Assembly (NCBI GenBank): GCA_022703255.1
Contig: JAKLDZ010000005.1
Span: 1 to 39,095, forward strand
Source: Myxococcota bacterium
GTDB taxonomy: Bacteria; Myxococcota_A; Polyangia; Polyangiales; Polyangiaceae
Reading direction: 5' to 3'
DNA length: 39,095 bases
Of the stretch, positions 1,819 to 27,545 are shown one piece after another (position 1 is the stretch's first letter; each line of letters starts with the position of its first letter). The position numbers were made by a program, and so were the translations under genes. The notes under the pieces were generated by a model. The model did not search any database, was not told the origin of the DNA, and worked only from the letters and a program-made list of their open reading frames with translations.

Positions 1819-1906
1819 GACGCGACCTTATCACCCGCGGCGTGCGGACGAAACAGCCCGAGGCGTCGCGAAGCATGTCCCTGTCGCTCAGGATGCGGGC
1901 AACGGC

Positions 1907-2635: not shown

Positions 2636-2707
2636 GGACTGCTCTTTCTAGAGCGCCCCGTGGGAACGTGCAACGCAGAACGCGGGACGAGCAGGAGGGG
2701 GCACCGG

Positions 2708-8982: not shown

Positions 8983-11262
8983 ATGAGCCATCGCGAGCTC
9001 GCCTCCCACCGCTCTTCCCCCCCTGAGTGCCCGAGCCCAGGCGCACCACTGCGCCTTTCTGCCGCCCGCGGACAACTCAGCATCGAGCTCCAACGACCTG
9101 TCCCCATCGGCCCCGTGCTCGTCGAGGCGATGGAAGTCTCCCTCCCCGGCTTGAAGTTCCCCATCGACTTGTCGGGCGGAGTGACCCGGTTCCGCAACCG
9201 ACGCGGTGTCCTCGAACGACTCAGGATCCGGGTCCCCTTCGCGAGACTGTTACGTCACATCGAGCCCGGGGTTCGTAACACGCTCGGCCCAGGACGGTGT
9301 GAACTCGTGGTCATGCCCGGTGCCCACGGGCTCGTGTTGGGAATCCACCACGCTCGCGCTGCGCTGGCGTTCGACCTCGTGTTCGCCCCCGACGACGACC
9401 GGCTACGACTCGTCGTGGTCGATGCTCGCGGGTCCGGCCTCGGGGCCCATGCGCACGGTGCGGCCCTCCGCGCGGCTGCGGGGATCGTCGGGAGCTCCGG
9501 GAGCTGCGCCGGCAGCGTGCTGGGGCTCGACCGAGGGCTCCGAGAGCTCGTGCGGGAGCTCACGATCGACGCGGGGGCGCGGGCGCCCGAGACACGCGGA
9601 CTGCACTTCGGAGAGTGGACCGAGACCGACGATGGGGTCGAGCTCGAGGCACGACGCGACGGTGAGGCAGCGGCGTTGCCGGCTCGGGCGGTCCGGGCGC
9701 TGGAGGCCGCGCGATGGTCGCAGGCGGCCGACGACGCGTTGGCGCACGGGGATCTCGACGCGGCCCGCAGCGAGTTGCTTTCGGCGCTCGAGCGCGCGCC
9801 TCGTCATCCCGCGCTGTTGCTGCGCCTTGCCGAGATCGACCTGGTCGCCGGGCATCGTCCGGAGAGCGCATTGAGCATGCTGATCGAGGGCATGGCTGCC
9901 GTAGACGCCGGCCCTGTCGGTGCCAGGTTGCTCGCCGCAACCGGAGACCTGGAGGGAGCGACTGCGGCGATGCGCCGCGCCGCGGAGCGCGAGGTCTTCG
10001 GGCGGCTGGCCGCGCTCCTCTTCCTGGAGGCAGCCGAGTACGCGGACCGCTATCGCGACCGGGCGGTGCTGCTCGACGAGGCGGTCGCGCGGGCTCCGGG
10101 ACTCGCGGAGGCGAGGTGGGAGCGCGCAGGAGCGAGGTTGGCAGCGGGCGACGTGCAAGCGGCGGTGGCGGACTTCGATCACCTCGAGGCATCCACGCAC
10201 GGGAGTGCAGCCCGTTTCGAAGTCTGCGAGCGTGCAGGGCGCATGCTGCTCGACGCACGGGCTCCGTCGGACGCGGCGCGGATGTACCAGCGCGCCCTTC
10301 GATACCTGCCGGGAAGCGCCGAAGCGAGCGCCGGGCTGGCCCGCTCGTTCCTCGAGGTCGGAGACGGTCCACGCGCGGTAACGCTGCTGACCCGGGCCGT
10401 TGCGCTCACGGGCAAGACGGGACCGAGCCCGGGGCTGGCGTTGGAGTTGGCCGAAGGGTTGGCGGACATCACGCAGGACCTGCCCGCGGCGATTGCGCAC
10501 GCGCGCTCGGTTCCCTTCGGAGTGACGGAGACGCCCCGGGCGAGGACGCTCGAAGGACGTTGGCTGGCCGTGCTCGGGGATCTGGTGGGAGCGAGCGTTG
10601 CCTACGCGCGGGCCCGCGAGGCGATGGAGGTTTTGCCCAAGGCCGCTCCCATCCCGGCGGAGTGGTCCCTGGAAGCCGCGCGCTTCGAGGCGGAAGTTCG
10701 CGGGGACTGGCGAGCCGCGCAGAGGCACCTGGCCGTGGCGTTGGTTCGTCACCCGAACGATCCGGGCGTTCGCGGGATGTTCCGCAAGGCCGGCCTCGCC
10801 CTGGGCGGCTCCGCCGACGAAACCGCACCGGATCGCGGTCGGGAGGCTCGTGGTGTGGAGCCATCCCCTTCCCTGCCCCAGGAGCTCGAACCACAGGCAG
10901 ACGTACGTGCTGCTGCCAGCGCAGAAGTGGCGGAGGAAATCGGAGAGGAGCAGCACGAGCCTGGCGAGGTGGACGAAGGGCGGATCGCGCGTCTGAGCGA
11001 GATGGTTCAGGGGGATCCGACGAACCGGGAGGCGGTGCGCGAGCTGTGCGGCCTTCTCTCCCGCGCGCGAAGGATGCTCGACCTGTTCGCGCTCGTGTCG
11101 GCGAGGCTCGAGGAGACCGCATCCCCGGAGGATCGCGGGTGGCTGCTGTCGTATCGAGCCCAGGCGCTGCACTCGCTCATCGACGCGGCAAGAGCAGCGG
11201 GCAGGGAGGAAGAGGCCGCGCTGTACGACGAGGCGCTCGGCATGGAGCCGACGCCCGGCTGA
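8983..11262 (+). CDS. Large TPR protein with unassigned N-terminal domain
   Basis: A 759-residue protein with no signal peptide. Residues 1-245 form a beta-rich domain I do not recognise (LRLSAARGQLSIELQRPVPI, VSLPGLKFPIDLSGGVTRFR). From about 250 to 610 there are helical TPR-type repeats rich in Ala, Leu and Arg, for example ADDALAHGDLDAARSELLSA and AARMYQRALRYLPGSAEASA. An acidic linker (about 650-680, AEVAEEIGEEQHEPGEVDEG) precedes a final helical block. TPR arrays usually serve as protein-binding scaffolds, and no catalytic motif is visible. It ends 18 bases from the convergent aminotransferase gene. No good ribosome-binding site precedes the ATG at 8983, so the start is provisional. Confidence 0.82.
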   Translation: MSHRELASHRSSPPECPSPGAPLRLSAARGQLSIELQRPVPIGPVLVEAMEVSLPGLKFPIDLSGGVTRFRNRRGVLERLRIRVPFARLLRHIEPGVRNTLGPGRCELVVMPGAHGLVLGIHHARAALAFDLVFAPDDDRLRLVVVDARGSGLGAHAHGAALRAAAGIVGSSGSCAGSVLGLDRGLRELVRELTIDAGARAPETRGLHFGEWTETDDGVELEARRDGEAAALPARAVRALEAARWSQAADDALAHGDLDAARSELLSALERAPRHPALLLRLAEIDLVAGHRPESALSMLIEGMAAVDAGPVGARLLAATGDLEGATAAMRRAAEREVFGRLAALLFLEAAEYADRYRDRAVLLDEAVARAPGLAEARWERAGARLAAGDVQAAVADFDHLEASTHGSAARFEVCERAGRMLLDARAPSDAARMYQRALRYLPGSAEASAGLARSFLEVGDGPRAVTLLTRAVALTGKTGPSPGLALELAEGLADITQDLPAAIAHARSVPFGVTETPRARTLEGRWLAVLGDLVGASVAYARAREAMEVLPKAAPIPAEWSLEAARFEAEVRGDWRAAQRHLAVALVRHPNDPGVRGMFRKAGLALGGSADETAPDRGREARGVEPSPSLPQELEPQADVRAAASAEVAEEIGEEQHEPGEVDEGRIARLSEMVQGDPTNREAVRELCGLLSRARRMLDLFALVSARLEETASPEDRGWLLSYRAQALHSLIDAARAAGREEEAALYDEALGMEPTPG

Positions 11263-11280: not shown

Positions 11281-12222
11281 CTACTTGCCGAGGCCCGAAG
11301 ACCCGGTCGGACCGACGGGAGCGCCGTCTTCCCAGGGCATGCGGGAAGGCAGTCCACCTTCCTGACGGAACTGACGGTGGATGGCCCGCGTGACCGGACC
11401 GACCGCGCCATTTCCGACGACCTGATCGTCGATGCGGACGACTGGAAGCACTTCCCGGACGGTCGAGGAGATGAAGACCTCATCGGCCCCGATGATGTCA
11501 CCGCTGGTGAGGGTGGTGATACGCACCGGGATGTTGATCGCGGAAGCCGCGAGGAGCAGGTGCCTGCGGGTGATGCCGGGAAGGATTCCCTCGGACTCCG
11601 GAGGTGTGAGCAGGACACGGTCCTTGACGGCGAAGACGTTCGAGGTCGTGCCTTCGAGGACACGGCCGCGGCCGTCGATGATGATCGCCTCGCGAGCGCC
11701 ACTGGCGTACGCATCGCGCAGCGCGAGGAGGCTCACCAGGTAGTTCGAAACCTTCGCGCCAGCCGCGGGGGTGTTGTCCGCCGTGCGCTCGGTTCGAACG
11801 AGCAGCACGCCGATGCCGTTGCGGTAGTCGTCGAGGGGGGGCAGGGAGATCGGCTCGACGAACACGATACGCATGGGGCTGCGTGCATTGGACGGGTCGA
11901 GGCCGAGGGGTCCGACGCCTCGCGTGATCTGGATGCGGACGACCGAGTCGCCTGCCCCTTCGGCGCGCGAGATCGCGGCGAGGATCTCGCCTTTGAGCGC
12001 ATCCTGGGAGACAGGCGGGACGATCGCGACTCGGCTGGCGGATTCGAAGAGCCGCTCGACGTGAGCGTCGAGGGCGAAGGGTCTGTGATCGTAGGTGCGG
12101 AGGACCTCGAAGACCGAATCCCCGTAGAGGAATCCGCGGTCGTAGACGGAAACGAATGCGCGGTCGGGAGTGACGACGGAGCCGTCGATCATCACGATGC
12201 GGCCGGGAATGGATTCCATCAT
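11281..12222 (-). CDS. Class-IV PLP aminotransferase (IlvE/DAAT type)
   Basis: A 313-residue fold-type IV aminotransferase. It shows MIDGSVVTPDRAFVSVYDRG and FLYGDSVFEVLRTY at the N-terminus, the PLP lysine in AAGAKVSNYL (K157), the conserved Glu in RVLEGTTSNVF (E190) and the phosphate-binding GILPGITRR. The family includes branched-chain aminotransferase (IlvE), D-amino-acid aminotransferase and 4-amino-4-deoxychorismate lyase. The sequence does not settle which, although the length and the NYL motif fit IlvE or D-amino-acid types best. The ATG at 12222 has AGGAGA upstream and overlaps the TGA of the upstream acyltransferase gene (ATGA), which points to translational coupling. A second ATG follows directly. 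Confidence 0.9.
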   Translation of the reverse strand: MMESIPGRIVMIDGSVVTPDRAFVSVYDRGFLYGDSVFEVLRTYDHRPFALDAHVERLFESASRVAIVPPVSQDALKGEILAAISRAEGAGDSVVRIQITRGVGPLGLDPSNARSPMRIVFVEPISLPPLDDYRNGIGVLLVRTERTADNTPAAGAKVSNYLVSLLALRDAYASGAREAIIIDGRGRVLEGTTSNVFAVKDRVLLTPPESEGILPGITRRHLLLAASAINIPVRITTLTSGDIIGADEVFISSTVREVLPVVRIDDQVVGNGAVGPVTRAIHRQFRQEGGLPSRMPWEDGAPVGPTGSSGLGK

Positions 12223-12881
12223 GCGTTCTCCTGTGCGGCTTCTGGCCAGCCTGGGATGGGGCAATGGTCGAGGAGAGCTTGCGCCTGCGCGCAGGCTGCG
12301 TCGAGGGCGAGGGCGAGAGAGTCCTCGGGGCGTGCGCGCGAAGTCGAATCCGGGTGGACGGGTTCGCCGAGGACGACGGCGACGCGGCTGAAGGGACATG
12401 GGATTTCGAAGTGATCCCAAGAGCTCAGCTTCCACGAGCGAGAGCACGCGGCGGCGAAGGGCACGACCACTCCGCCGGATCGGGATGCGGCGAGGAGGAC
12501 ACCGGGGCGCGCCTGATGCCTTGGGCCACGCGGACCGTCCAGTGCGACGGCGCCGTCCCACCGCTCCCGGAGCATCCTGACCAGACCGATCAACGCGGCG
12601 CGCGCGTTGCGGGAGGAGGATCCCCGGACCGCATGCAGGTCGAGCCATTTGAAGGCGGAGGCCATCAGGTCACCGTCGCCGGAGAGGCTGACGATCGCGG
12701 CGGTGCGACGTCGTCGCCGGAATGCGAGCAGCGGCAGGATCTGACCGTGCCAGAGGGCGAGGACCCAGGGCAGGTCTGCGCATCGGCGCAGGGAGGGGTG
12801 GGAGGCGGAGGTGGTGCGCAGGGTCGCGATCCAGAGCCGCGCGACGAGACCGAGGACGAAGCCAAGGGCGGCCCTGCGCAT
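12219..12881 (-). CDS. DUF374 lysophospholipid acyltransferase-like protein
   Basis: A 220-residue protein of the DUF374 branch of the LPLAT/lipid A acyltransferase superfamily. It has an N-terminal hydrophobic segment (LGFVLGLVARLWIATL), the LWHGQILPLL block (His about 45), SLSGDGD (66-72), RGSSSRNA (86-93), and DGPRGPRHQARPG (115-127), all typical of the family. It probably transfers an acyl chain to a lipid acceptor at the inner membrane; the substrate is unknown. It starts 9 bases after the stop of the giant TPR gene and overlaps the aminotransferase start by 4 bases, so the three genes form one transcription unit. Confidence 0.88.
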   Translation of the reverse strand: MRRAALGFVLGLVARLWIATLRTTSASHPSLRRCADLPWVLALWHGQILPLLAFRRRRRTAAIVSLSGDGDLMASAFKWLDLHAVRGSSSRNARAALIGLVRMLRERWDGAVALDGPRGPRHQARPGVLLAASRSGGVVVPFAAACSRSWKLSSWDHFEIPCPFSRVAVVLGEPVHPDSTSRARPEDSLALALDAACAQAQALLDHCPIPGWPEAAQENA

Positions 12882-12890
12882 GTCGAGGGG

Positions 12891-15800
12891 CTACTGCTTG
12901 AGCTCCTTGAGGAGCTCCTGGGCTTTTTGGAACGAGGAGTCGTTCTCGAGGGAGCGCTCGAGCATCTGGATGGCCTTCTTGGTGTCGCCCTGACGACGGC
13001 TGATCTCGCCGAGGTAGTAGAAGACCTCGGCCTTGGTGATGGGCGCCTTGTCGTCGAGGCGCTGCAGCAGCAGGGCGCGGAAGGTCTTCTGGGCACGCTC
13101 GAGATCGTTCATGTCGAGGGCGAGGACCCCGAGGTCCACGAGGATCGCGAGGTTGCCGGGGTTGATGCGGAAGGCCTGATCGAGCTCCTGCAGGGCGCGC
13201 TCCTTCTCGCCGTCGGCGGTGAAGGCGCGAGCCAGGCGGTGGTGGATGTCGGCGAGCTCCTTGACGCGCTTTCCGGCGTAGGACTCGACGATCTTCTCGA
13301 GGGCCTTGACCGCGTCCTTGCCGCGGCCGGAGGCGCTGTAGGAGTCGCACAGGGCGAGCAGCAGGTCGCGGTCGTCGGGAGCCAGGGTGCTGGCCTTCTC
13401 GAGCAGCAGCGATGCGGCGGCGGCGTCCTTGCGTTTGTCGGTGTGGATGTCCGCGGCGGCGCGCAGGAGCTTGACCTTCGCGGCGGGTTCGACCGCGGCT
13501 TCGGCGTCCTGCGAGATCATGTCGGCCACTTCTGCCCAGGCGCCGGTGCGCTCGTAGAGCTTGCGGAGGCGCTCGCGGACGGGAGCCGAGGACGGGTCGG
13601 CGCGGAGGCCGGATTCGAGGACGCGGCGGGCGCCCGCGTCGTCCTTGACCCTGGCGAACAGGTCGGCGAGGCGCATAGCGAGCTCGACGGCCTCGTCGCC
13701 GGACAGGGAGCCAAGGATCTTCTCGAGGGTTTCTGCGGCCTTGGCGGGCTCGTTCTTGACCTCGTAGAGCCTGCCGAGGGACTCGAGGGCTCCGCGATGG
13801 TTCGGGTCACGAGCGAGCACCTGCTGATAGGCCTCGATGGCCTTCGCGGTGTCGCCGAGGCGGGACTCGTAGACCTCGCCGAGGCGCACGGTGAAGGTGA
13901 GCTCCGCTGCGGAGTCGCCGCGCCCGCGCGCCAGATCGATCTGGCCGTTGAGCAGCTCGGCGAGCTCCTCGTCGCGTCCGCTCTTCTCGTAGAGCTGAGA
14001 GAGAGAGACCACGGCGTCGGTGAGTCCGGGCTCCTCCTCGAGCACCTTGTGAAGCACGCCGACCGCGTCGGAGACGGCATCGAAGCGTGCAGCGAGCAGG
14101 TGAGCGAGCTCGAGGCGGAGCTCGTTTCGCTCCTTGGGCGTGGAGGCGACGTCGATGAGGCGCTCGAGCAGGGTGCACAGGTCCTTGTCGCGCTTCTCCT
14201 TGGCGTACAGCTCGCGAAGGGCGGCCGCGGCCCCCTTGTCTGCGGGCTCCGCGTCGAGGATCTCCTCGTAGATCTCGAGGGATCGGACGTTGTCGTTCAG
14301 CTTGTCGCGCAGCACCTCGGCAGCCTTGTGCTTGAGCGTGACGATGCTGGGGCCATCGGCGGTGAGCTCCGCGCGGCGGAGCAGCAGCTTGACGGTTTCG
14401 GGCCAGTCGCTGGCGCGCTCGCGGAACCGGGTGAGCTCCTCGAAGGGCCAGATCCAGGCATCGTCGACCTCGACGAGCTGGCGCAGTACCTGCTCGGCGA
14501 GGGGTTCGTCGTGCACCGATCCCTCGGCGAGGGTGGCCGCCTCGCGGAACAGATCGCGGCGCTTTTCGCCGTCGGTCTCGAGCATCGCCCTGCGGCGCAG
14601 GGTTTCGATGAGGTCACGCTCGCGCCCGGGCTCGCGCTGCAGGCTCTCGACGGAGCGGAGCAGCTCGAGGTTTTCGGGGTCGCGCGCGAGGGCCTTGGTG
14701 AGCGCGTCTTCGGCGGCGCGGGCATCGGCGAGCTTGTCGCGATACCAGCCGGCGAGGCGGGCGAACAGGTCGCGGGCGCTCGAGGAGTCGAGGTCGGAGG
14801 CGCCTTCGAGCGCCTTGGCGAATGCGCGAGCTGCCTCGGTCCACTGGGCGTTGATCGCGGCCAGACGCTCGATCTCCTTGAGCGTCGATTCGTCGCGGGG
14901 GTCGTCGGCGATCGCGTCTTCGAGGACGCGCTGAGCGCGGCGGGTGTCGTTGGCCTGATCTTCGAGGACGCGTGCGAGCTCGCTGCGCATCCGGAGGCGG
15001 TCTGCCGGGGACTGAGCGAACGAGATACGTTTCTCGAAGAGGTTGGCGAGGCTTTGGAAGTCGGCGCGGGCTCTGTAGACGGTTTCCAGAGCCGAGGCGG
15101 CGTCTTCGAACAGGTCCTTGTCGGCGGTGAGCTCCTCGATGGTCTCGCAGGCCTTCACGTGGTCGGGAGCGCGTTCGAGGGCCATGCGCAGGGTCTCGAG
15201 GCCCTGCATCTTGTCGCCGAAGGACTTGATCTGCAGGACGGCGAGGCGGTGGTACAGGTCGGCCTGCTTGCCGGAGTCGGTCTCGACCGAGACGCGACGC
15301 TCGAGGATGTCGGCGAGCTCGTGGTCGTTGCCGAGCTTGCTGTGCAGGCGGTCGAGGGCTTCGAGGAGATCGGGTGCATCGCCGGCCTGCTCGAGCGCCT
15401 TGCCGTAGGCAGCCACGGCCCGCTTGTCGTCGGACAGCTTGTTCTCGGCCACGCGGCCGAGGCGGGTCCACAGGTCCTTGGCGACGACGGCGTCGAAGGT
15501 GTTTCCTGCGCGTTCGGTGAGGGCGTCGGCGTAGCGGTCGTAGCCCGAGCACGCGCCGCAGAGGCGCTCGATCTCGTCGTGGAACGCGGGATCGTCGGGC
15601 GTCTCCGCGAAGGCCCGAAGCATGGCGTCGAGCGCTTTGGAGGCGTCCGACATCGAGGCGTCGAACACGACCGCGATGCTCTTGAGGGTGCGTGCGCGGT
15701 CGAGGGGTTCGGACTGGGCCTTGAGGCGCATTTCGAGGACGCCGACGAGGGTGTCGAAGCGGGAGCCTGCGCGCAGGACCGGCTCGAGGATTTCGGCGGC

Positions 15801-18800
15801 CTGCAGGCGGAGCTCTTCGCGCTCTTCGCCGAGCTTGCGCACGGCATCGATGGCGACGGAGTCCGCGGGTGCCTCTTCGAGGACCATGCGGAAGGCTTCG
15901 AGTGCCTCATTGGGCTCCGCGAGCGCGCCGGCGAGGAGTCCGCCGATTTCGCGTCGCAGGCCGACGCGATCGTCGACGGTATCGGCGACGCTGGCCTCGA
16001 GGCGCAGGGTGTCGAGCAGCTCGGACCACATCGACTCGGCCCGGTACAGCTCTTCGAGCTTGCGGAGCACGAGCCTGTCGGCCGGGCGTACGTCGAGCGC
16101 GGACCGCAGGGTGTCGATCGCAGCCGGACGATCCTTGAGCTGTTTTTCCCAGCGATCGGCGGACTGGACGAGGAGCGAGAACTTGAGGTCCTGGTCGTCG
16201 TCGCCGGCGAGCTCGACGCGGCGCTGGTACAGCTCGACGAGGCGCTTGGCGTCGTCCTTCTGCTCGTACAGCTCGATCAGGCAATCGATCGTGTAGGCGC
16301 TCATGGGATCGAGCTCGAAGGCGCGCTCGTAGTCGGCGACGGCGCCGTCGGAATCCTCGAGCATGTCGCGTCGCGTCTCGCCGACGCGGCGCCACACCGA
16401 CGCGCGTTCCTCGTCGGAGCCGATGAGGTCGGCCTTTTTGGTGAGGACGCGGACCAGGGTGGGCCAGTCGGAGAGCAACGTGGCGAGGTAGTCGATTTTC
16501 TCGAGGGGAGCGGGATCGGACTCGTCGGTAGCGGCGAGGCGTTCGTAGGCGACGAGGGCGCTGCGGGGGTCGTCGCGGCGCTCGTCCTGGACGACGGCGA
16601 GGGCAGCGAGGAGATCGCGCAGGGTGGTTCCTTCGGCGTCCTTGGCCGCGGCCTCGTAAGCCTCGGCGAGGTCGTCCCAGGCGCCGAGGTCACCGGCCAG
16701 ACGCTCGAGGTCGGCGCGGATGTCGGAGTCGTCGGCGACGATCTCGAAGGCAGCGCGCAGGGCTTCGAAGGCCCGGCTCTTGTCGTTCCCGCGCTGCTCC
16801 CACAGGCGAGCGGTCTCACGCAGGATCGAGATTCTATCGACGTCGTCGCTCGCGAGGTCGAAGCGCTGGGCGTTGAGGTAGATGAGCTTGCGCCAGTCGT
16901 CGGCCCCCTCGTGGATGGGCATGAGGATCTCGACGATGCGCTCCTTGTGCTGATCGTCGGCGGCGAGCAGGGCCTCGAGGTCGGCGACGGCCTCTTTGTG
17001 GCCCGGGGAGCGGCGGACGATTTCCTCGTACTGGTCGATGGCGCCGACGAGGTCATGGATCTGGTCGCGCAGCAGGCGAGCGAGGTCGAGGCGGTAGGCG
17101 CACCCCTTGTCGAGGTCCTCCTCGCCTTCGGCACGCTGCAGGCAGAGCTCGGACAGCTCAGTCCAGCGTTCCCGCGTGCGATACAGCGCAGTCAGCGCGT
17201 CGAGAGACACCTCGTCGTGCTCGTCCACGTCGAGCGCCGATCGATACGTCTCGATGGCCTTGTCGAGGTCGAGCAGGGAGTTGCGCTCGAGGTCTGCGAT
17301 GGTGTGCAGGACCTTGAGTCGGTCGACGGGGTCGTAGCGATGATCGAGAGCGCTGCGATAGAGGGCGACCCGCTCGGAGGGCCTGTCGGCCTTGATGAGC
17401 AGGGCGTCGATGGCGCCGAACAGCTCGCGGGAGTCGGGCTCGAAGTCGAGGGCGCGGCGATAGAACGCGAGGGCTCGGTCCGTGTTGCCGAGCTCGGCGA
17501 AGAGCTCGCCGGTGCGGCGGCACAGCTTGGCGGTGGCGGGCTCGTCGGAGGGGATCTTCTCGAGCTCGGCGGCGAAGATGTCGGCGAGCCTGCGCTCTGC
17601 GCCGGCGACCTTGGCCTGGCTTTCGAGCTGACGCCACGTGTCCTGGTCGGTGATGTCCTCGTGCAGGAGCTTCGCGGTGGTTTCGAGGGCGGCGGAGAAG
17701 TCCTCTTCCTGCTCCTCCTGCATGAGGGCGAGGCGACGGAGCAGCTCGCGACGCTTGTCGCTGTCCTGGCTGGCGGCGAGGCGCGCCTCGATGGTGACCT
17801 TGACGCGCTTCCACTCTGCGGTGTTGAGGTAGAAGGGCTCGAGCATTTCGGCGGCACGAGCGCGGTGCTCCGGATCCTCGGCGTGCTCGAGCAGGCGCTC
17901 GAGCTCCGCGATCGCGGCCGGGTTCTGCGGGTCGATGGCGAGCGCATCGGCGAGCTCGTCAAACGCGCGGAGCGTGTCGCCGAGCCTGGCGTCGGCGACC
18001 TGCGCGATCTTCACGCGCAGCAGGGCCTTGTCGGTGGACTCCTGATCGAGCTGACGCTCAGAGAGGGCAACGAGGTCGTTGTAGCGGTCGGTCTCGGTGT
18101 AGAGCTTCTCGAGGGCCTCGACAGCAGCGGGGTCGAGGTCGAGGTCGAGGACCGACTCGTAGACGGCGATGGCGGCGGGGCGATCCTGGAGGACCTCGCT
18201 GCAGAGCCGCGCCTGGCGGAAGAGCAGCTGCTTCTTCTCACCCTCGTTCTCGGCGACATCCACCCTGCGGCGGATGATGTTCAGAAGGGCGTTGGCGTCG
18301 CCGGCCTCCTCGTACAGCGCCTCGAGTGCGATGAGCGCGCGCGGATCGTCGCCGTGGATGTCGAGAGCCTTGAGGTAGTTCTCGCGAGCGAGCTCGCGGT
18401 CCGCGAGCTCGGTGCGCGCAAGCTCTGCGATGCGCAGGGTCACACTGAGCTGGATGTCGCCGTCGAGGATCTGGCCGACGACCTCGCGCAGGAGCGCGAC
18501 GAGCTCGGGGAATCTGCGGGTGGCGGAAGCGAGGCGTTCGACGGTGTCGAGCCAACCCTGGACGGAGTCGGTGCCAGCGGCTTCCTTGAGGCCACCGACG
18601 GCGAACTGGAAGGCGCGAGCGGGGTCGGCGAGGGGGCCTTCGGCGACCTTGACGGCCTGCTCGAGCAGGTCGAGGCGCTCGACGGGGGAGTAGCTGGTTT
18701 CGGCTTCGATCTGGACGACCTTGAGGAGCTTCTCGTGGTCGCCGTCGGCCTCGTACAGGGGGTGCAGCACCTGGGCGGCATCCCTGCGGGCGGAGGGGTT

Positions 18801-21800
18801 CTCGAGCAGCAGCTCGAGGGCGGCGCGGCTGGGGCCGTGGCTCGGCTCGATGGTGAGGGCCTGACGATACGCCTCCAGGGCGCCGAGCAGGTCGTCCTGA
18901 TGCGTGCGGCGGACATCGCCGAGACGCACGAGCAGGGCGATGCGATCGTTGGGCTCCTCGGCGAGCGCCAAGTCGGCGTCGAGGGTTTCCGCGAGGTCGA
19001 CCCACCGGTCGGCCTTTTCGTAGAGGGTCTCGAGGGCCTGCAAGACGGGACGCTCGGGGCCGAACTCCTCGAGGATGGATCGCCACGCGGAGATGGACTC
19101 CGGGACGTCGTCGAGCTTGTCGGTGAGGGTCTGGGCGATGCGGGTCATGATGCGACGTCGCTCGTCGGGATCAGTGGAACCCTGCTCGCGAGCGCGAAGG
19201 ACTTCGACCAGCTCGCGCCACTTCTGGGCCTTCTCGTACAGGCGTTCCAGGGCACCGAGGGCGGTGGAGTCGCCCGGGTTGTCGGCGAGACGCGCGCGCC
19301 AGGCGTCGATGGCACCGGGCTGATCCTCGAGGATGCTCTCGCAGATTTCGCCGAGGCGGCCGAGGAGCTCGGCGCGACGAGCGGTGTCGTCCTCGAGCTT
19401 GACCTCGGTGCGGAGCATCTCGACGAGGGCGGCGTGGTTGCCGAGTCCGGCGTAGATCTCCTCGAGGGCGCGAGCGGCGGGGAGCACGAGGTTGGCGTCG
19501 TCGGGATCGATCTCGATCACCTTGCGGTACACGCCTTCCGCGCGCTTGACGTCGTTGAGCTGGTCGCGGCAAATCGCGGCGACCTCCATCAGGATCGTGC
19601 CGCGCGACTCGGGGTCGGGCGCGGCCGCCGACGCCTGCGTCAGCACCTCGGCCACCCGCTCATGGGCGCCGATCCGTCGGCCGATCTCCGTCAGGCGCGT
19701 TCGCGCGGAGCGGTCCACCGGATCGATCGGCACGAGCTTGGCGAGGGCTTCCAGCGCGCCGGTGTCGTCGGCCAGGCGCTCGTCGCGCAGCATGGCGGTG
19801 CGACGGAGCAGCTCCCTGCGCACGGACTCGTCGGTGGCGGACTCGAGGCGGATGTCGAGGACGCGGACCAGGTCGCGGATCTCGCCCTTGGCGTCGTAGA
19901 CGACCTCGAGGATCTCGGCGGCGTGGGGACGCAGCTCGGGGACCTCGAGGATCTTCTCGACGATGGCGCGGGCCTCGTGCTGGTTGGGGTCGATGCGCAG
20001 GACGTCTTCGACCTGCGGCAAGGCGGCGGTGGGATTCGAGAGCTTCTCGAGCTGGAGGGTGCCGAGGCGGAGCTTGATCTGGACGATCTCGTCGCCGACG
20101 GCGGTGTCGAGCTTGCGCTCGAGCAGGGCGACGAGCTTGCTCCAGCGCTGCTCGGAGGCGTAGAGCTTCTCGAGGGCGGAGATGGTCGACGCGTGGAGCG
20201 AGTCGATCTCGAGGATGCGCTCGTAGTAGTCGATCGCCTTGGGGAGGTTCTCGATGATCTCCTCGCAGACGATGGCGACTTCGGCGAGCAGGTCGATGCG
20301 TCGGCTGGCGCCGGAGGTGGCGGTGACCGCGCCGGCGTACATCGCCTCGAGATCGGCCCAGCGCTCGCGGCCGGTGAGGATCTGCTTGAGGCGCGAGAAG
20401 GCGCGATCGTTGGCGGGCTGACGGGTGAGCACGCGGTTCAGGTAGGGGATGGCCCCGTCCTGATCGCCGAGGACCTCGTCGTGCAGGCTCGCGGCGCGCT
20501 CGCACAGCTCGATCTCCACGGCTTCGGGCAGCGCAGGCTCGGAGGCGAGGGCGGCCTTGTAGGCCTCGGCGAGGTCGTTGGGACGCTCCGCGGCGGTGGA
20601 GAGATCGGAGGCGCGATCCCACAGCACGAGCTCTTCGGGGTACTCGGCGACGGCCTTGAGGACGACCTCGAGGGCGACGCCGGGTTCGGCGAGCTTCTTC
20701 TCGCAGACGTCGGCCAGGCGCGACATCAGCTCGAGACGGCGGCCACGATCGACCGTGCAGTCGATGAGCACGCCGAGAGAGGCTGCCTCCCTGGGAGCGT
20801 CACCGAGCTTCGCGTGCAGATCCACGAGCACTTCGGCTGCGCGTGGACGGGTCGCGTCGATCTGCACCAACGCGTCGAGGATCTGGATCGCGCGGTCGGC
20901 GTCGGCGCCGAGGTCGAGGGCGCGGACGGCGGCATCGAGGGCTGCTGCGTGGCGATCCATGCGGGGGAACAGCTCGGCGAGCTGCAGGTCGAGCTCGCCG
21001 CGGTCGGCGCCTTCGCGCTGATCCCGGTGGGCCTCGATGACCTTCGCGGCGGCATCGAGCTCACCGGCGGAGATCAGGAGGCGGGGCAGGGCGACGAGCG
21101 AAGCGTGGTTCGCGAGGTCTTTTTCGAGGCAGCGACGGTAGATCTCGATGGCGCGGGCGGGCTCGCCGAAGGCGTCCTCTTCGAGGGTCGCCCACTCGAC
21201 CATGAGGCGCGGCCCCTCTTCGATGTCCGCCAGCTCGATGCGCAGATCGAACAGCCAGCGCAGGTCGTCGCGGCGGTCGGTCGCGCGCAGGATGCGATCG
21301 AGCGTGGTGATGGTGTGCTCGTCGGTCGGGTCGCTCTCGACCAGGGCGCGGTAGGTCTTGATCGCCTCGTCGGCGCGGCCGAGCTCGGTGGCGTAGACCT
21401 CTCCGACGCGCACCTGCAGGAACCTGCGCTCCTTGTCGGACAGGTCCTTTTCGCGGGCGAGGCGGCCTTCGATGGCGTTGACGAAGGGTTCCCAGGCGCC
21501 CGCGGCGCGCGCGAAGCTCTCGAGCATCTCGAGGGCGCCGTCGGCGCGCGGGTTGAACTCGTAGGCCTTGCGCGCATAGGCGAGGGCCGCGGCCTTGTCG
21601 GACAGCTTGTGGCCGGTGACGTCGGCGAGCTTGCGCAGGAGCACGAGCTTGTCGGCCGGGTCCTCGGACTTGCCGAGGAGGATCTCGTACAGGGCGGGCA
21701 GGCGGTTCCAGCGCTCGTCCTTCTCGTAGATGGGCACCAGGGCGCGAGCCGCGCGGGTGTCGTCGGGACGCACGCTGAGCACGCGTTCGTAGGAGCGGAA

Positions 21801-24095
21801 GGAGCGCTCGGGAGCGTGGATGCGCTCCTCGAAGACCTCGGCGACGCGGAAGGAGAGGTCGACCTTGACGGTGGGGTCGGCGGCCTTGTCGGCGGCGGAG
21901 GAGAGGACCTCGGCGAGGCCTTCCCAGTCCTCGTTCTGGGCGTACAGCTCGGTGAGGCCGTCGTAGTCCTCGGCGGCGAGGTAAGCGTCGCGCAGCACGC
22001 GCAGCGCACGGGAATGGCCTGGGCGAATCTCCAGCACGCGACGCCATGCGCTCGCGGCCTTGCGGGGATCGTTGAGCCGGTCGGAGCAGATCTGGCCGAG
22101 CTTCTGCAGCACCGCGATGCGGGTGTTCTCGTCGGGCGCCTGCTCGACACGCTTCTCGAGGACCTCGGCGACGGTGACGTAGTCCTTGTCGCGCTCGGCC
22201 TGCTTTTCGAGCATGTCCATGATGCCGGGAGCGGACGGGTCGATGGACAGCACGCGCTTGTAGATGGCGATGGCGTCGGCGGACTTGTCGAGGCGCTCGG
22301 AGGCGAGCTTCGCCATCTCGATGAGGACGGGGAGCTTCTCGGAGTCGGCGAGCAGCTCGACCTCCTGGGCGTACAGGGCGAAGAGGGGGGCCCAGGCGCG
22401 GCGACGGTTGTACAGCTCCTTGAGGCGCGTGCGCGCTTCCTCGTCCGTGGGATCGATCTTGAAGATCGCCTCGTAGACCTCGGTCGCGTTCTGCACGTTC
22501 TGGAACTGCTCGACCCAGCGCTTGCCCGCGGAACGCAGGAGCGTGAGCTTCTCGTCGCGATCGGTGGACAGCTCCGCCAGCTTCTGCTGGTGAACCAGCA
22601 AGTCACGCCAGCGCTGCAGCGCCTCGTACACCCGGCACAGCTCCCGCACCGCGTCGATCGCCTGGTCGTCGAGCTGCAGGATCTGGTTGAGCACCGTGAC
22701 CAGCGCGCTGTCGCTCTTGATGTTGTCGCGATAGATTGCCGCGATCTCGCGCAGCACCTCGAGGCGACGCTCGCGATCGTCGGCGCCGATGCGCTCGAGC
22801 TCCTGGCGGAGCAGATCGACGAGCGGCGACCATGCCTCGGTCTGGCGATACAAGCGCTTGAGGGAGGCGCGGGCGTCGTGGTTCTCCGGGTCCTGGCGCA
22901 GCAGCACCTTGTACTGCTCGATCGCCTTGCCGGCGTCCTCGCGCGTCTCGGCCAGCTTCGCGATCTCGGTCCCGATCGCGGCCTTCTGCTCGCCGTCGGT
23001 CAGCGAACGCTGCGCGTCGGTGAGGATCGACATCAGGCGCCCGATGTCGCCGGACTTCTCGCAGAACTCGCGGTAGAAGTTGAGCATGCCGAGGTGCGCG
23101 GGCTCGGAGCGACGGACCTTGTCGAAGTAGGGCTCGGCCAGGTCGGCGCGGTCGCGCATGCGCCACTGGGTCATGGCGATCTGGAGCCAGATGCCGATCT
23201 CCTGGCCGGGCTTGTAGCCGCTGGCCTTGAGCTGGTCCTCGTACATCGCGACCAGGTGCTCCCAACGCTCGTTGCGGCCGAAGAAGTCGGACAGGAAGCC
23301 CATGGCCTCGGCGTAGCCGGGGGCCAGATCGAGGGCGCGCTCGTAGGCCGCCGCGCCGCGCGCGTCGTTGCCGAGCCTGCGCACGACCACCCGGGCGAGA
23401 CGGATCAACGCGGCGAAGCGCTCGTCGCGAGAGGGGAGGTCGGTCGCCATGATCTCGAGCACGCGAGCGACGTCTTCCCAGGCGCCGCGGTCGCGGTAGA
23501 TGCGCTCGAGGAGGATGGCAGCGCGACGGTTGCGCGGGTCGAGGCGCAGGGCCTCCTCGAGGACCTCCACGATCTCGGCGAGGGTGTCGTCGGAGCGGCC
23601 GTAGCGGTAGATGACCTCGGCGGCGGTGGCGAGCATCGAGCTCTTGAGCTCGCCGCCCTCTTCCTTGCGCGCCTCGGCGAGGTTGCGGTCCGCGATGGCG
23701 CGCCACTCGGCGGCCTGATCCTCGGAGCGCTCCAGGGCCTCGGTGGCCGTGGGATCGCCGGGGCGAATCTCGAGCAGACGCTTGTACGCCGCGGTCGCGC
23801 GCTTGTGCTCCAACAGCTCGTCGTCGAGCACCCGGGCCAGCTCCGCCTGCAGGATCGGCTCCTGCTTGGAGCCCCCCACCAGCGAGATCGCGTACTCGAG
23901 CAGCGTGGCTACCGCGCTCCACTCGCGACGCGTCTCGTGCTCCCGACGCGCTGCCTCGAGCAGGTCCACCAGCTCGTCGTTCGACATCCCGATGTCCGGC
24001 GCCGTGATGGCGTCCTGCAACTCGACCCAGGCAGTCTCGTTGTCCGCGTCGTCCTGCAACAGACCAAGAGCAGTTCGGATTTTCTGCGCGCTCAT
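12891..24095 (-). CDS. Giant TPR-array protein, 3,734 residues
   Basis: An 11.2-kb gene for a 3,734-residue protein made almost entirely of degenerate helical repeats. A recurring block of roughly 105-115 residues can be followed from end to end: RRxELLxRxAxLxxxxLxDxxxAxxxY, then a short turn with DP or EP, then AxxxLExLYxxxxxWxxLVxLLxxRL. By length this is about 33 blocks, each equal to about three TPR units. No signal peptide, membrane helix or catalytic motif is visible, so it is probably a cytoplasmic scaffold forming a long superhelix. The ATG at 24095 (MSAQKIRTALG) is preferred over a GTG two codons earlier. The upstream GGGGTG is a modest ribosome-binding site. It leads an operon with the DUF374 acyltransferase and the aminotransferase. 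Over its whole length it uses no TTA, CTA or TCA codon. Long TPR proteins occur in Myxococcota, but I cannot name a characterised homologue. Confidence 0.9.
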   Translation of the reverse strand: MSAQKIRTALGLLQDDADNETAWVELQDAITAPDIGMSNDELVDLLEAARREHETRREWSAVATLLEYAISLVGGSKQEPILQAELARVLDDELLEHKRATAAYKRLLEIRPGDPTATEALERSEDQAAEWRAIADRNLAEARKEEGGELKSSMLATAAEVIYRYGRSDDTLAEIVEVLEEALRLDPRNRRAAILLERIYRDRGAWEDVARVLEIMATDLPSRDERFAALIRLARVVVRRLGNDARGAAAYERALDLAPGYAEAMGFLSDFFGRNERWEHLVAMYEDQLKASGYKPGQEIGIWLQIAMTQWRMRDRADLAEPYFDKVRRSEPAHLGMLNFYREFCEKSGDIGRLMSILTDAQRSLTDGEQKAAIGTEIAKLAETREDAGKAIEQYKVLLRQDPENHDARASLKRLYRQTEAWSPLVDLLRQELERIGADDRERRLEVLREIAAIYRDNIKSDSALVTVLNQILQLDDQAIDAVRELCRVYEALQRWRDLLVHQQKLAELSTDRDEKLTLLRSAGKRWVEQFQNVQNATEVYEAIFKIDPTDEEARTRLKELYNRRRAWAPLFALYAQEVELLADSEKLPVLIEMAKLASERLDKSADAIAIYKRVLSIDPSAPGIMDMLEKQAERDKDYVTVAEVLEKRVEQAPDENTRIAVLQKLGQICSDRLNDPRKAASAWRRVLEIRPGHSRALRVLRDAYLAAEDYDGLTELYAQNEDWEGLAEVLSSAADKAADPTVKVDLSFRVAEVFEERIHAPERSFRSYERVLSVRPDDTRAARALVPIYEKDERWNRLPALYEILLGKSEDPADKLVLLRKLADVTGHKLSDKAAALAYARKAYEFNPRADGALEMLESFARAAGAWEPFVNAIEGRLAREKDLSDKERRFLQVRVGEVYATELGRADEAIKTYRALVESDPTDEHTITTLDRILRATDRRDDLRWLFDLRIELADIEEGPRLMVEWATLEEDAFGEPARAIEIYRRCLEKDLANHASLVALPRLLISAGELDAAAKVIEAHRDQREGADRGELDLQLAELFPRMDRHAAALDAAVRALDLGADADRAIQILDALVQIDATRPRAAEVLVDLHAKLGDAPREAASLGVLIDCTVDRGRRLELMSRLADVCEKKLAEPGVALEVVLKAVAEYPEELVLWDRASDLSTAAERPNDLAEAYKAALASEPALPEAVEIELCERAASLHDEVLGDQDGAIPYLNRVLTRQPANDRAFSRLKQILTGRERWADLEAMYAGAVTATSGASRRIDLLAEVAIVCEEIIENLPKAIDYYERILEIDSLHASTISALEKLYASEQRWSKLVALLERKLDTAVGDEIVQIKLRLGTLQLEKLSNPTAALPQVEDVLRIDPNQHEARAIVEKILEVPELRPHAAEILEVVYDAKGEIRDLVRVLDIRLESATDESVRRELLRRTAMLRDERLADDTGALEALAKLVPIDPVDRSARTRLTEIGRRIGAHERVAEVLTQASAAAPDPESRGTILMEVAAICRDQLNDVKRAEGVYRKVIEIDPDDANLVLPAARALEEIYAGLGNHAALVEMLRTEVKLEDDTARRAELLGRLGEICESILEDQPGAIDAWRARLADNPGDSTALGALERLYEKAQKWRELVEVLRAREQGSTDPDERRRIMTRIAQTLTDKLDDVPESISAWRSILEEFGPERPVLQALETLYEKADRWVDLAETLDADLALAEEPNDRIALLVRLGDVRRTHQDDLLGALEAYRQALTIEPSHGPSRAALELLLENPSARRDAAQVLHPLYEADGDHEKLLKVVQIEAETSYSPVERLDLLEQAVKVAEGPLADPARAFQFAVGGLKEAAGTDSVQGWLDTVERLASATRRFPELVALLREVVGQILDGDIQLSVTLRIAELARTELADRELARENYLKALDIHGDDPRALIALEALYEEAGDANALLNIIRRRVDVAENEGEKKQLLFRQARLCSEVLQDRPAAIAVYESVLDLDLDPAAVEALEKLYTETDRYNDLVALSERQLDQESTDKALLRVKIAQVADARLGDTLRAFDELADALAIDPQNPAAIAELERLLEHAEDPEHRARAAEMLEPFYLNTAEWKRVKVTIEARLAASQDSDKRRELLRRLALMQEEQEEDFSAALETTAKLLHEDITDQDTWRQLESQAKVAGAERRLADIFAAELEKIPSDEPATAKLCRRTGELFAELGNTDRALAFYRRALDFEPDSRELFGAIDALLIKADRPSERVALYRSALDHRYDPVDRLKVLHTIADLERNSLLDLDKAIETYRSALDVDEHDEVSLDALTALYRTRERWTELSELCLQRAEGEEDLDKGCAYRLDLARLLRDQIHDLVGAIDQYEEIVRRSPGHKEAVADLEALLAADDQHKERIVEILMPIHEGADDWRKLIYLNAQRFDLASDDVDRISILRETARLWEQRGNDKSRAFEALRAAFEIVADDSDIRADLERLAGDLGAWDDLAEAYEAAAKDAEGTTLRDLLAALAVVQDERRDDPRSALVAYERLAATDESDPAPLEKIDYLATLLSDWPTLVRVLTKKADLIGSDEERASVWRRVGETRRDMLEDSDGAVADYERAFELDPMSAYTIDCLIELYEQKDDAKRLVELYQRRVELAGDDDQDLKFSLLVQSADRWEKQLKDRPAAIDTLRSALDVRPADRLVLRKLEELYRAESMWSELLDTLRLEASVADTVDDRVGLRREIGGLLAGALAEPNEALEAFRMVLEEAPADSVAIDAVRKLGEEREELRLQAAEILEPVLRAGSRFDTLVGVLEMRLKAQSEPLDRARTLKSIAVVFDASMSDASKALDAMLRAFAETPDDPAFHDEIERLCGACSGYDRYADALTERAGNTFDAVVAKDLWTRLGRVAENKLSDDKRAVAAYGKALEQAGDAPDLLEALDRLHSKLGNDHELADILERRVSVETDSGKQADLYHRLAVLQIKSFGDKMQGLETLRMALERAPDHVKACETIEELTADKDLFEDAASALETVYRARADFQSLANLFEKRISFAQSPADRLRMRSELARVLEDQANDTRRAQRVLEDAIADDPRDESTLKEIERLAAINAQWTEAARAFAKALEGASDLDSSSARDLFARLAGWYRDKLADARAAEDALTKALARDPENLELLRSVESLQREPGRERDLIETLRRRAMLETDGEKRRDLFREAATLAEGSVHDEPLAEQVLRQLVEVDDAWIWPFEELTRFRERASDWPETVKLLLRRAELTADGPSIVTLKHKAAEVLRDKLNDNVRSLEIYEEILDAEPADKGAAAALRELYAKEKRDKDLCTLLERLIDVASTPKERNELRLELAHLLAARFDAVSDAVGVLHKVLEEEPGLTDAVVSLSQLYEKSGRDEELAELLNGQIDLARGRGDSAAELTFTVRLGEVYESRLGDTAKAIEAYQQVLARDPNHRGALESLGRLYEVKNEPAKAAETLEKILGSLSGDEAVELAMRLADLFARVKDDAGARRVLESGLRADPSSAPVRERLRKLYERTGAWAEVADMISQDAEAAVEPAAKVKLLRAAADIHTDKRKDAAAASLLLEKASTLAPDDRDLLLALCDSYSASGRGKDAVKALEKIVESYAGKRVKELADIHHRLARAFTADGEKERALQELDQAFRINPGNLAILVDLGVLALDMNDLERAQKTFRALLLQRLDDKAPITKAEVFYYLGEISRRQGDTKKAIQMLERSLENDSSFQKAQELLKELKQ

Positions 24096-24485
24096 CGTCA
24101 CCCCAACGCCACGTCGTGGTTTCGTCGCACCGGTTCGGTCGGCACTCGGACAGTGTCATCGACACGCCAACCGCTCGCGTCGCCCGCTGTGTCGTCCACG
24201 CCGATCGAGGCGAAATTCCGCCAGATCCACGCAGAACGACACAAGGGGCCGCGATGCTACGACGCGGTCCCCCAGGACACAAGACGTCCTGGCCACGACG
24301 GCGGCGGTCCCGCGCCCGACGGCGCGCAGATGCGGCAACTCGTGGAGAACGGGCCCACGACGCGAACGGAATCCTCGGGCGGTGTTGATTCCTCTTGCAA
24401 TCCGGAGCCACCCCCCTGCAGAGCCGAGCCGGGAGCGCGCAGCCCCCCTGCCCCGTCGCTTCCCCCCAGAATCCCCCGGAGACCC
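24096..24485. other. 390-bp divergent intergenic region with possible structured leader
   Basis: This region separates the giant TPR gene (leftward) from the Fe-S gene (rightward) and should hold both promoters, although no convincing -35/-10 pair was found. An imperfect palindrome, GGCGAAATTCCGCC, lies at 24209-24222. Between 24246 and 24360 several hairpins are possible: 24246-24271 (8 bp, one bulged T, 9-base loop), 24272-24292 (CCAGGAC/GTCCTGG, 7-base loop), and 24311-24326 (CGCGCC/GGCGCG, 4-base loop). TCGTGG (24340-24345) can pair either with CCACGA at 24293-24298 or with CCACGA at 24355-24360. This could be a 5' leader switch for the Fe-S gene, or a chance result of high GC. Confidence 0.35.
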
Positions 24486-25805
24486 ATGGGACACCTGCAC
24501 GCCTCCAAGGACCGCTGGCTCGCGCTGCAACGTCGCGTCGACAAGACCCAGACCGGCCTGCCGCCCACCCCCGAGCTGCACGACATCCTCCGCCACCTGT
24601 TCACCGAGCAGGAGGCCGACATCGCCGCCCGACTCCCCGTCGTCCCCCGCTCCCTCTCCAGCCTCGCCCGACGCTTCGACCTCCCCGCCGAGTCCCTGCG
24701 CGCCATCCTCGACCGCATGGCCGACAAGGGCCTGGTGTTCGACCTCCCCCACCCCACCCGCGGCACCTTCTACATGCTCGCCCCGCCCGTCATCGGCTTC
24801 TTCGAGTTCTCGATGATGCGCGTGCGCTCCGACATCGACCAGAAGGCCGTCGCAGGCCTGCTCTCCCGCTACCTCTACGACCGCCCCGACTTCATGCGCG
24901 AGGTCGCACGCAGCGACACCCCCGTCGGACGCGCCCTCCCCCACGAGCCCGCCCTCGACGGCGACGTCCCCGACACGGAGGTGCTCGACACCGATCGCGC
25001 CACCGAGATCGTTCGTGACGCGAAGTACGGCGCGGTCTCCCTGTGCTACTGCCGTCACAAGAAGGAGCACCTGGGCGAGGCATGCGGCCGCCCGGTGGAC
25101 GTGTGCCTCTCGCTCGGCACCGGAGCCGACTACATCCTGCGGCACGGTCACGGACGACGCGCGGAGGCCGCCGAGCTGCTCGACATCCTCGAGCGATGCC
25201 GCGGCCAGCAGCTCGTCCACATCGCCGACAACGTGCTGCGCAAGCCGTCGTACATCTGCAACTGCTGCGGCTGCTGCTGCGGCCAGCTCGCGGCGATCAA
25301 CCGGCACGGCCTGTCCCATGCCGTGGCCACCTCGGGGTTCCTGGCGCGCATCGACCGCGAGGCGTGCACCGGCTGCGGACGCTGCGCGCGGGTGTGTCCG
25401 GTGCGGGCGATCTCGGTGCGTCCGCGGCCCCCGCAGGAGGGGCCGAAGGCGAAGATGCTGGCGGAGATCGAGGAGGACATCTGCCTGGGGTGCGGGGTGT
25501 GCAAGGCGCAGTGCACGAAGGGGGCGCTGCACATGAAGGCGCGGGAGCGGCGGATGCTGACGCCCGAGGACACGCTCGAGCGCGTGCTGAGCATGGCGGT
25601 GGGGCGGGGCAACCTGCACTCGCTGCTGTTCGACGACCAGGACGGGCCTGGTTCGGCGCTGGCGAGCCGTCTGGTGGGGGCGATCGAGCGGATGCCGCTG
25701 GCGCGGCGGGCGGTGCTGGACGAGCAGCTCAGGTCGCGGTTCGTCAAGTTCCTGGGCAGGACGGCGCGCCGGGATCGGAGGACGCCGAAGGAGGTCGTGG
25801 AGTAG
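24486..25805 (+). CDS. Winged-helix and dicluster 4Fe-4S protein
   Basis: A 439-residue cytoplasmic protein. Residues about 40-100 look like a winged helix-turn-helix (SLSSLARRFDLPAESLRAIL, DRMADKGLVFDLP). A middle Cys-rich part has CYCRHKKEHLGEAC (187-200), C207 and the dense NCCGCCCGQ cluster (259-267). Two classic ferredoxin motifs follow: CTGCGRCARVCP (294-305) and CLGCGVCKAQC (333-343). Two 4Fe-4S clusters are therefore expected, with a third metal or cluster site possible at the extra Cys. Proteins with this general layout occur in Deltaproteobacteria and are annotated only as 4Fe-4S binding; the physiological role is unknown. GGAGACCC precedes the ATG at 24486. The frame is open far upstream but only in antisense of the TPR gene. 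It converges on the lipoprotein operon 8 bases downstream. Confidence 0.87.
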   Translation: MGHLHASKDRWLALQRRVDKTQTGLPPTPELHDILRHLFTEQEADIAARLPVVPRSLSSLARRFDLPAESLRAILDRMADKGLVFDLPHPTRGTFYMLAPPVIGFFEFSMMRVRSDIDQKAVAGLLSRYLYDRPDFMREVARSDTPVGRALPHEPALDGDVPDTEVLDTDRATEIVRDAKYGAVSLCYCRHKKEHLGEACGRPVDVCLSLGTGADYILRHGHGRRAEAAELLDILERCRGQQLVHIADNVLRKPSYICNCCGCCCGQLAAINRHGLSHAVATSGFLARIDREACTGCGRCARVCPVRAISVRPRPPQEGPKAKMLAEIEEDICLGCGVCKAQCTKGALHMKARERRMLTPEDTLERVLSMAVGRGNLHSLLFDDQDGPGSALASRLVGAIERMPLARRAVLDEQLRSRFVKFLGRTARRDRRTPKEVVE

Positions 25806-25813
25806 GCGCGGGG

Positions 25814-26491
25814 CTACTGCGCGAGGGGGAAGCCGCAGCACTCGGCGCCGACATCGCACGCGCTCACGCCGGGCTTCTCCATCCAGCCGCACCCCCACGG
25901 CGCGGGATGGTCGTTGAAGATGCAGAAGCAGGCGCCGGAACCCTCCTGCTTCGGCGTGCAATCGAAGCCGTAGGAGAAGCCGTCGGAGCAGGCGAAGGAG
26001 CAGGAGCAGATCCCGTCGGACGATTCCGCGCAGGTGCTCTCGGAGCAGACGACGGGGGACTTCTCGACGCAGAGCCCGTCGGGCTTGCAGGTCTGGGAGG
26101 CCTCGCAATCCCAGTTGTTGTAGCAGGCGGCTTTCTCGCACGGGTCCACGCCGTTGGAGCACACGTAGCCGATCACGCAGCCGTTGGCGTCGAGCTTGGG
26201 ATTGCCGTTGCACCAGTTGCACAAGGGCATGGGTGGGCAGAGGGAGTCGGGGAGCCCGGAGTCGCCGGCCTGGCCGCCGGCGCCGCCGGCCCAGCCTCCG
26301 CCGACGGCGATTCCCGCCGCTCCGGACGAGCCTGCGACATAGCCGCCGTTTCCGCCGGAGCCCGCCTGGGAGCCACCGCTTCCGGCCACGGCCTCCCGCT
26401 CCACCTCGACCTTGCCTCCGCAGGCGAGCAGGGCGTCCATGGCCCCGATCCACGCGAGCAGTCGAATCCGAAATGGGACAATCGAAATCAT
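25814..26491 (-). CDS. Cys-rich secreted lipoprotein (Gly-rich linker)
   Basis: A 225-residue lipoprotein. A hydrophobic signal segment ends in a good lipobox, LLAC-GGKVE. Residues about 35-77 are a low-complexity Gly/Ser/Ala linker. The rest carries about 24 Cys in short spacings (LCPPMPLCNWCNGNPK, CEASQTCKPDGLC, CSCSFACSDG), which implies a disulphide-stabilised extracellular domain. The CEASQTCKPDGLC segment resembles small Cys-rich repeats seen in myxobacterial surface proteins. The ATG at 26491 has GGGAG upstream. It is the last of three lipoprotein genes spaced by 13 and 18 bases. Function is unknown; surface display through the Lol pathway is inferred. Confidence 0.83.
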   Translation of the reverse strand: MISIVPFRIRLLAWIGAMDALLACGGKVEVEREAVAGSGGSQAGSGGNGGYVAGSSGAAGIAVGGGWAGGAGGQAGDSGLPDSLCPPMPLCNWCNGNPKLDANGCVIGYVCSNGVDPCEKAACYNNWDCEASQTCKPDGLCVEKSPVVCSESTCAESSDGICSCSFACSDGFSYGFDCTPKQEGSGACFCIFNDHPAPWGCGWMEKPGVSACDVGAECCGFPLAQ

Positions 26492-26504
26492 GGCAAACTC
26501 CCTC

Positions 26505-27527: not shown

Positions 27528-27545
27528 GATATCACCCATTGTCGG

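Follow-up and report, generated by a model that had tools for sequence, protein, structure and literature searches.

Long TPR scaffolds such as Ctr9, Ski3, IFT139/TTC21B and O-GlcNAc transferase consist of a continuous alpha-alpha solenoid of TPR-type hairpins in chains of about 900-1,370 residues. LapB (YciM) is a small, membrane-anchored TPR regulator of LPS synthesis. Acyltransferases of the DUF374 family were renamed LpxJ following enzymatic work in Epsilonproteobacteria and Rickettsia, and in the R. typhi enzyme residues W60, H61, D86, D132, W172 and D173 are essential (PMC6148475). The window described here is the whole stretch of DNA that was analysed (39,095 nucleotides), one entire contig of a Myxococcota bacterium genome that is 73.5% complete. 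It carries a gene for a giant TPR protein (the giant), followed closely on the same strand by a DUF374 gene and an aminotransferase gene. The features are as follows.

12891..24095, minus strand: giant TPR solenoid gene; open reading frame from the ATG at 24095, 3,734 aa plus stop, with TPR Pfam matches
13395..22904, minus strand: array of 72-residue four-helix units, several with an extra helix of about 17 residues (residues about 398-3567)
12894..13298, minus strand: C-terminal helical cap without periodicity (residues about 3600-3734); one of the best conserved regions
12882..12890, no strand: gap of 9 bases from the giant gene to the DUF374 gene
12219..12881, minus strand: DUF374/LpxJ-family acyltransferase gene; 220 aa, ATG at 12881, PF04028 with E 3.7e-20
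12219..12222, minus strand: ATGA overlap (4 bases) of the DUF374 stop and the aminotransferase start
11281..12222, minus strand: class IV (BCAT/DAAT-like) aminotransferase gene; 313 aa, PF01063 with E 5.6e-53
24486..25805, plus strand: 4Fe-4S ferredoxin-type protein gene, divergent, upstream of the giant; a neighbour in the close clade only
8983..11262, plus strand: gene for a 759-aa TPR protein, convergent, downstream of the aminotransferase; only in the window's four-genome clade

The 3,734-residue TPR protein, the 9-base spacing and the 4-base overlap had all been reported by a sequence-only reading of this DNA, and each stands as listed: many TPR Pfam matches fall in the minus-strand frame, whose stop codon is TAG, and the DUF374 ATG follows nine bases later. 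A plus-strand open reading frame of 4,513 aa (12264-25805) that crosses the giant was rejected as a codon-aligned antisense shadow joined to the real Fe-S gene; it shares the codon boundaries of the giant, and only its end, from about 24486, is a gene. An antisense frame stays open through the giant because each of its codons is the exact complement of one of the giant's, with TTA, CTA and TCA seldom used at such GC. The GC content at the three codon positions of the sense frame (0.74/0.41/0.91), together with end-to-end alignment with orthologues, identifies the minus-strand reading as the real gene. The 9-base gap and the 4-base overlap are consistent with co-transcription of the giant, DUF374 and the aminotransferase, and perhaps with translational coupling as well, though they do not imply a dedicated scaffold-acyltransferase complex. 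Elsewhere in the window are an MlaC-type phospholipid transport gene (PF05494; 8220-8885, plus strand), found a few kilobases from the giant here and also in three other close loci, and two adjacent genes for Gly-/Ser-rich putative lipoproteins (25814-27539, minus strand), one of which was checked against Pfam and had no match.

The giant is built from a 72-residue four-helix (double-hairpin) unit. In a profile over 17 orthologues the autocorrelation has its maximum at lag 72 and satellite peaks at 34, 37-38, 144 and 72n+17, and it is this unit that replaces the blocks of about 110 residues proposed earlier. Compared with the canonical 34-residue TPR, the sub-lags of 34 and 37-38 sit inside the dominant 72-residue double unit. 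Clear register is seen for about 41 units, with the consensus xLExDPxDxxAxxxLExLYExxGRWxxLAELLxxRLExAxDxxxRxxLLxRxAxxxExxLxDxxxAxxxYRx. The alignment of the 17 orthologues has 536 invariant columns distributed along its whole length; the invariant residues are for the most part Leu, Ala and Arg. Several unit spacings extend to 88-90 residues (in the window protein at about 1306-1392, 1685-1773, 1991-2081, 2298-2389, 2677-2766 and 2911-2999), owing to the insertion of one extra helix. This extra 17-residue helix, with a consensus like RAAEILEPVYEA, recurs every three to five units. This higher-order period could set kinks in the superhelix.

TPR models of Pfam score above their cut-offs in the giant (TPR_8, 120 bits; TPR_1, 117.6 bits), and no domain other than TPR was recognised. 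Structure prediction, which the sequence-only reading had suggested as a check, agrees with the TPR assignment: AlphaFold models of both ends are all-helical TPR solenoids (mean pLDDT 90.8 for residues 1-760 and 89.4 for residues 2935-3734), and the giant is predicted to be one continuous helical solenoid. Inspection of the sequence gave no evident signal peptide at the N-terminus, so the protein is probably cytosolic. Its solenoid of TPR-type hairpins is of the kind seen in Ctr9, Ski3, IFT139/TTC21B and O-GlcNAc transferase, which are among its top Foldseek matches with TM-scores near 0.2. Unlike those scaffolds, the giant reaches about 3,750 residues, repeats a 72-residue double hairpin and has no catalytic domain. 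The Foldseek matches to Ctr9, Ski3 and IFT-A (TM about 0.2) and the Pfam matches to TTC21 ARM repeats were set aside as generic solenoid similarity. LapB (YciM) is likewise a TPR protein, and one tied to LPS synthesis; unlike LapB, the giant is retained by genomes in which LPS genes were not found.

Conservation of the giant extends over its whole length. In tblastn searches of DUF374-anchored loci of the window's family, the giant lies directly upstream of DUF374 in every fetched locus and its copies align mostly end-to-end, in a single collinear alignment at 48-80% identity; some of these copies run off contig ends, and those at L018, L028 and L034 are more divergent than the others. Giants from other orders and classes show 25-37% identity, mostly near full length, with a few best alignments shorter or fragmented. 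A profile search of genome contigs, many of the genomes compared being draft assemblies, yielded 70 giant loci, including Polyangium, Sorangium, Minicystis, Byssovorax, Labilithrix and Sandaracinus. A C-terminal probe matched the giant in 52 of 59 relatives (the match in G002 is weak and may be a paralogue) and, at E 1e-12, in 103 of 237 Myxococcota genomes, a count that includes some paralogues. The giant thus occurs in nearly all searched Polyangiales genomes and can be recognised in further classes of Myxococcota. The 80 complete copies measure 3,699-4,184 codons, with a median of 3,800. Judged from these alignments and lengths, the Myxococcota giants are orthologues of a single protein, old and length-constrained. 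Unit numbers in repeat proteins usually change fast, by gain and loss, so the near-fixed count of about fifty units argues for strong constraint. A limited keyword search of the literature returned no description of the giant and nothing relevant on giant TPR proteins in myxobacteria. Additional paralogues of the giant TPR type, some of about 4,050 codons and others of about 3,370-3,480, were seen at L134, L135 and L138 and at G020:C1:3579757 and G032:C1:9461534, and the genome of the window itself has one of 1,974 codons on its contig C13.

The DUF374 gene is likely to encode an LpxJ-type lipid A secondary acyltransferase, on the basis of family, residues and co-occurrence. PF04028, the domain common to LpxJ of Helicobacter, Campylobacter, Wolinella and Rickettsia, scores 71.7 bits in the window protein against a gathering cut-off of 26.8. 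All six essential LpxJ residues are present, with spacing equal within one residue: the W-H, D, D and W-D positions numbered 60/61/86/132/172/173 in R. typhi correspond to W44, H45, D69, D115, W155 and D156 in the window protein. H45, D69, D115, W155 and D156 occur in at least 95% of 41 DUF374 proteins from the window's and related loci. The product would use the His45/Asp115 pair. As expected of an LpxJ, DUF374 of this type occurs with LpxC and LpxK; unlike the known LpxJ enzymes, this putative one is encoded in a run that includes a giant TPR gene.

The genomic distribution of DUF374 follows lipid A synthesis. Among the 59 relatives, LpxC or LpxK was found in 28 of 28 with DUF374 and in 2 of 31 without it; within the window's family the counts are 26 of 26 and 1 of 11, and LpxK was found in the window genome. 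The pattern recurs across the phylum, where 98 of 109 DUF374 genomes have LpxC against 16 of the 128 others (237 genomes). The Fisher tests applied to these co-occurrences ignore shared ancestry; chance is an unlikely explanation, since the agreement is near-perfect inside one family and losses are repeated. Among nine named genomes, LpxC and DUF374 were both found in six (three of Polyangium and those of Minicystis, Labilithrix and strain 68-20), and neither was found in the three of Sorangium cellulosum. Sorangium is reported as LPS-lacking in the title of Keck et al. 2011, which is listed among the references of PMC6372800.

The giant does not share this distribution. It is kept in Sorangium, where LpxC was searched for and not found, and in 22 relatives without detectable LpxC and LpxK, 18 of which have the aminotransferase adjacent to it. 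Across the phylum DUF374 and the giant are negatively associated. The two genes are therefore not gained and lost together, and their distributions suggest that the putative LpxJ serves lipid A while the function of the giant is older.

The neighbourhood of the giant was compared in a neighbour table with a FastTree phylogeny of 88 giants, in which 80 loci had enough flank to be counted. The neighbours of the giant are the aminotransferase only (22 loci), DUF374 and the aminotransferase (21), DUF374 only (14), MlaE/MlaF (6), the aminotransferase with phosphatidylserine decarboxylase (Psd; 3), beta-oxidation genes (1) or other genes (13). Adjacency to DUF374 changes at least 11 times on the giant tree, and adjacency to the aminotransferase likewise. 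DUF374 is beside the giant in 26 of the 28 DUF374 genomes of Polyangiales; both exceptions belong to family f8, where the two are on different contigs. The conservation of the DUF374 neighbour that the sequence-only reading had put forward for checking thus holds in Polyangiales, and within Polyangiaceae in particular, but neighbours switch elsewhere. Outside Polyangiaceae the homologues do have other neighbours, which speaks against that reading by its own standard, although these are often lipid genes and not random ones.

The aminotransferase is the deepest conserved neighbour of the giant, deeper than DUF374. Of 41 genomes with its orthologue, 35 have it next to the giant; 13 of the 17 order-level genomes that carry the giant are among them. 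In deep Polyangiales clades without LpxC it comes directly after the giant. In the Sorangium loci its open frame starts 6 bases past the giant stop. In family f36 it is divergent upstream of the giant, with Psd directly downstream. The enzyme shares PF01063 with the class IV aminotransferases IlvE, D-amino-acid transaminase and PabC. Its closest NCBIfam models are those of branched-chain aminotransferases, and it falls below every curated cut-off (PRK08320, 243.7 of 363 bits; ilvE_I, 191 of 245.6 bits), so that it does not classify as IlvE. A second class IV enzyme, at 30-37% identity, is present in many relatives.

Outgroup lineages with the giant-aminotransferase pair and without DUF374 suggest that DUF374 was inserted into an existing pair. 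One distant genome, of family f17, likewise has DUF374 immediately after the giant (L124), so the linkage may be ancestral or may have arisen twice. In four genomes of family f36 in which the two genes share a contig (G154:C44, G105:C22, G088:C111 and G235:C64), DUF374 has the same orientation as the giant and lies downstream of it at roughly 40-50 kb. This is perhaps a trace of older linkage, and taken with L124 it leaves room for an ancestral association of the two genes.

We consider it probable that the giant and DUF374 have different histories and are co-expressed neighbours in one run, not a dedicated pair. DUF374 was probably inserted into the giant-aminotransferase run, or retained there, in Polyangiaceae, and would have been lost together with lipid A, for example in Sorangium, with the giant and the aminotransferase staying together. 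The persistence of the DUF374-giant adjacency in Polyangiales weighs against separate histories, as it could mean function. This adjacency and the nine-base spacing are what one would expect of a single envelope-assembly machine in which the giant scaffolds the acyltransferase, and LapB (YciM) offers a TPR precedent in LPS regulation; the sequence-only reading had favoured such a shared function, perhaps in an envelope complex. But the giant persists where neither lipid A enzymes nor DUF374 were found, and the two genes are unlinked in family f8. Since DUF374 tracks LpxC and LpxK whereas the giant does not, we have downgraded a dedicated TPR-DUF374 machine to a quite improbable explanation. 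Hardest of all to credit is that the giant forms a functional pair with the class IV aminotransferase, in amino-acid metabolism alongside RidA for instance, and that DUF374 is a passenger. The frequent adjacency of the two, their divergent arrangement in f36 and the presence of RidA nearby in 21 loci fit such a pair, but several lineages have the giant without an adjacent aminotransferase, and the adjacency has changed repeatedly on the tree.

A broader role can be put forward tentatively, though we think it unlikely: the nearly length-invariant superhelix may organise lipid or envelope metabolism in the cytosol in general, exchanging its operon partner from lineage to lineage (LpxJ, MlaE/MlaF, Psd, PlsC with DAG kinase, or beta-oxidation). 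This speculative role draws on the recurrence of lipid genes beside the giant, which differ by lineage. Apart from MlaE/MlaF and Psd, divergent DAGK and/or PlsC genes lie upstream in about 19 loci, divergent 3HCDH/ECH genes (3-hydroxyacyl-CoA dehydrogenase, enoyl-CoA hydratase) in up to 29/23 loci, and thiolase-3HCDH-ACAD genes beside the giant in L125; the PlsC and DAG kinase genes mark one clade, the 3HCDH and ECH genes another. Control sequence totalling 400 kb, taken from three genomes, contained none of the tracked lipid families, the MlaF query matching only generic ABC ATPases. Against this, the lipid theme was picked after the data had been seen. ECH, 3HCDH and ACAD are numerous in large myxobacterial genomes generally. 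The aminotransferase, RidA and DnaX recur equally: RidA is near the giant in 21 loci and DnaX in about 20, mostly on the opposite strand (e.g. L042, L046 and L099) and 1.5-5 kb downstream, near the giant-aminotransferase pair, in what is a conserved neighbourhood. The 13 loci classed as other have no tracked neighbour at all.

Under the favoured reading of separate histories, the giant would be a cytosolic protein about 3,750 residues long, in which some fifty four-helix units of 72 residues are joined to a C-terminal cap. From its fold and conservation, it is most likely a very long superhelical protein-binding scaffold. The myxobacterial DUF374 protein gains a concrete likely role, that of LpxJ. 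And Sorangium, reported to be without LPS, provides a natural experiment that sets the giant apart from the acyltransferase.
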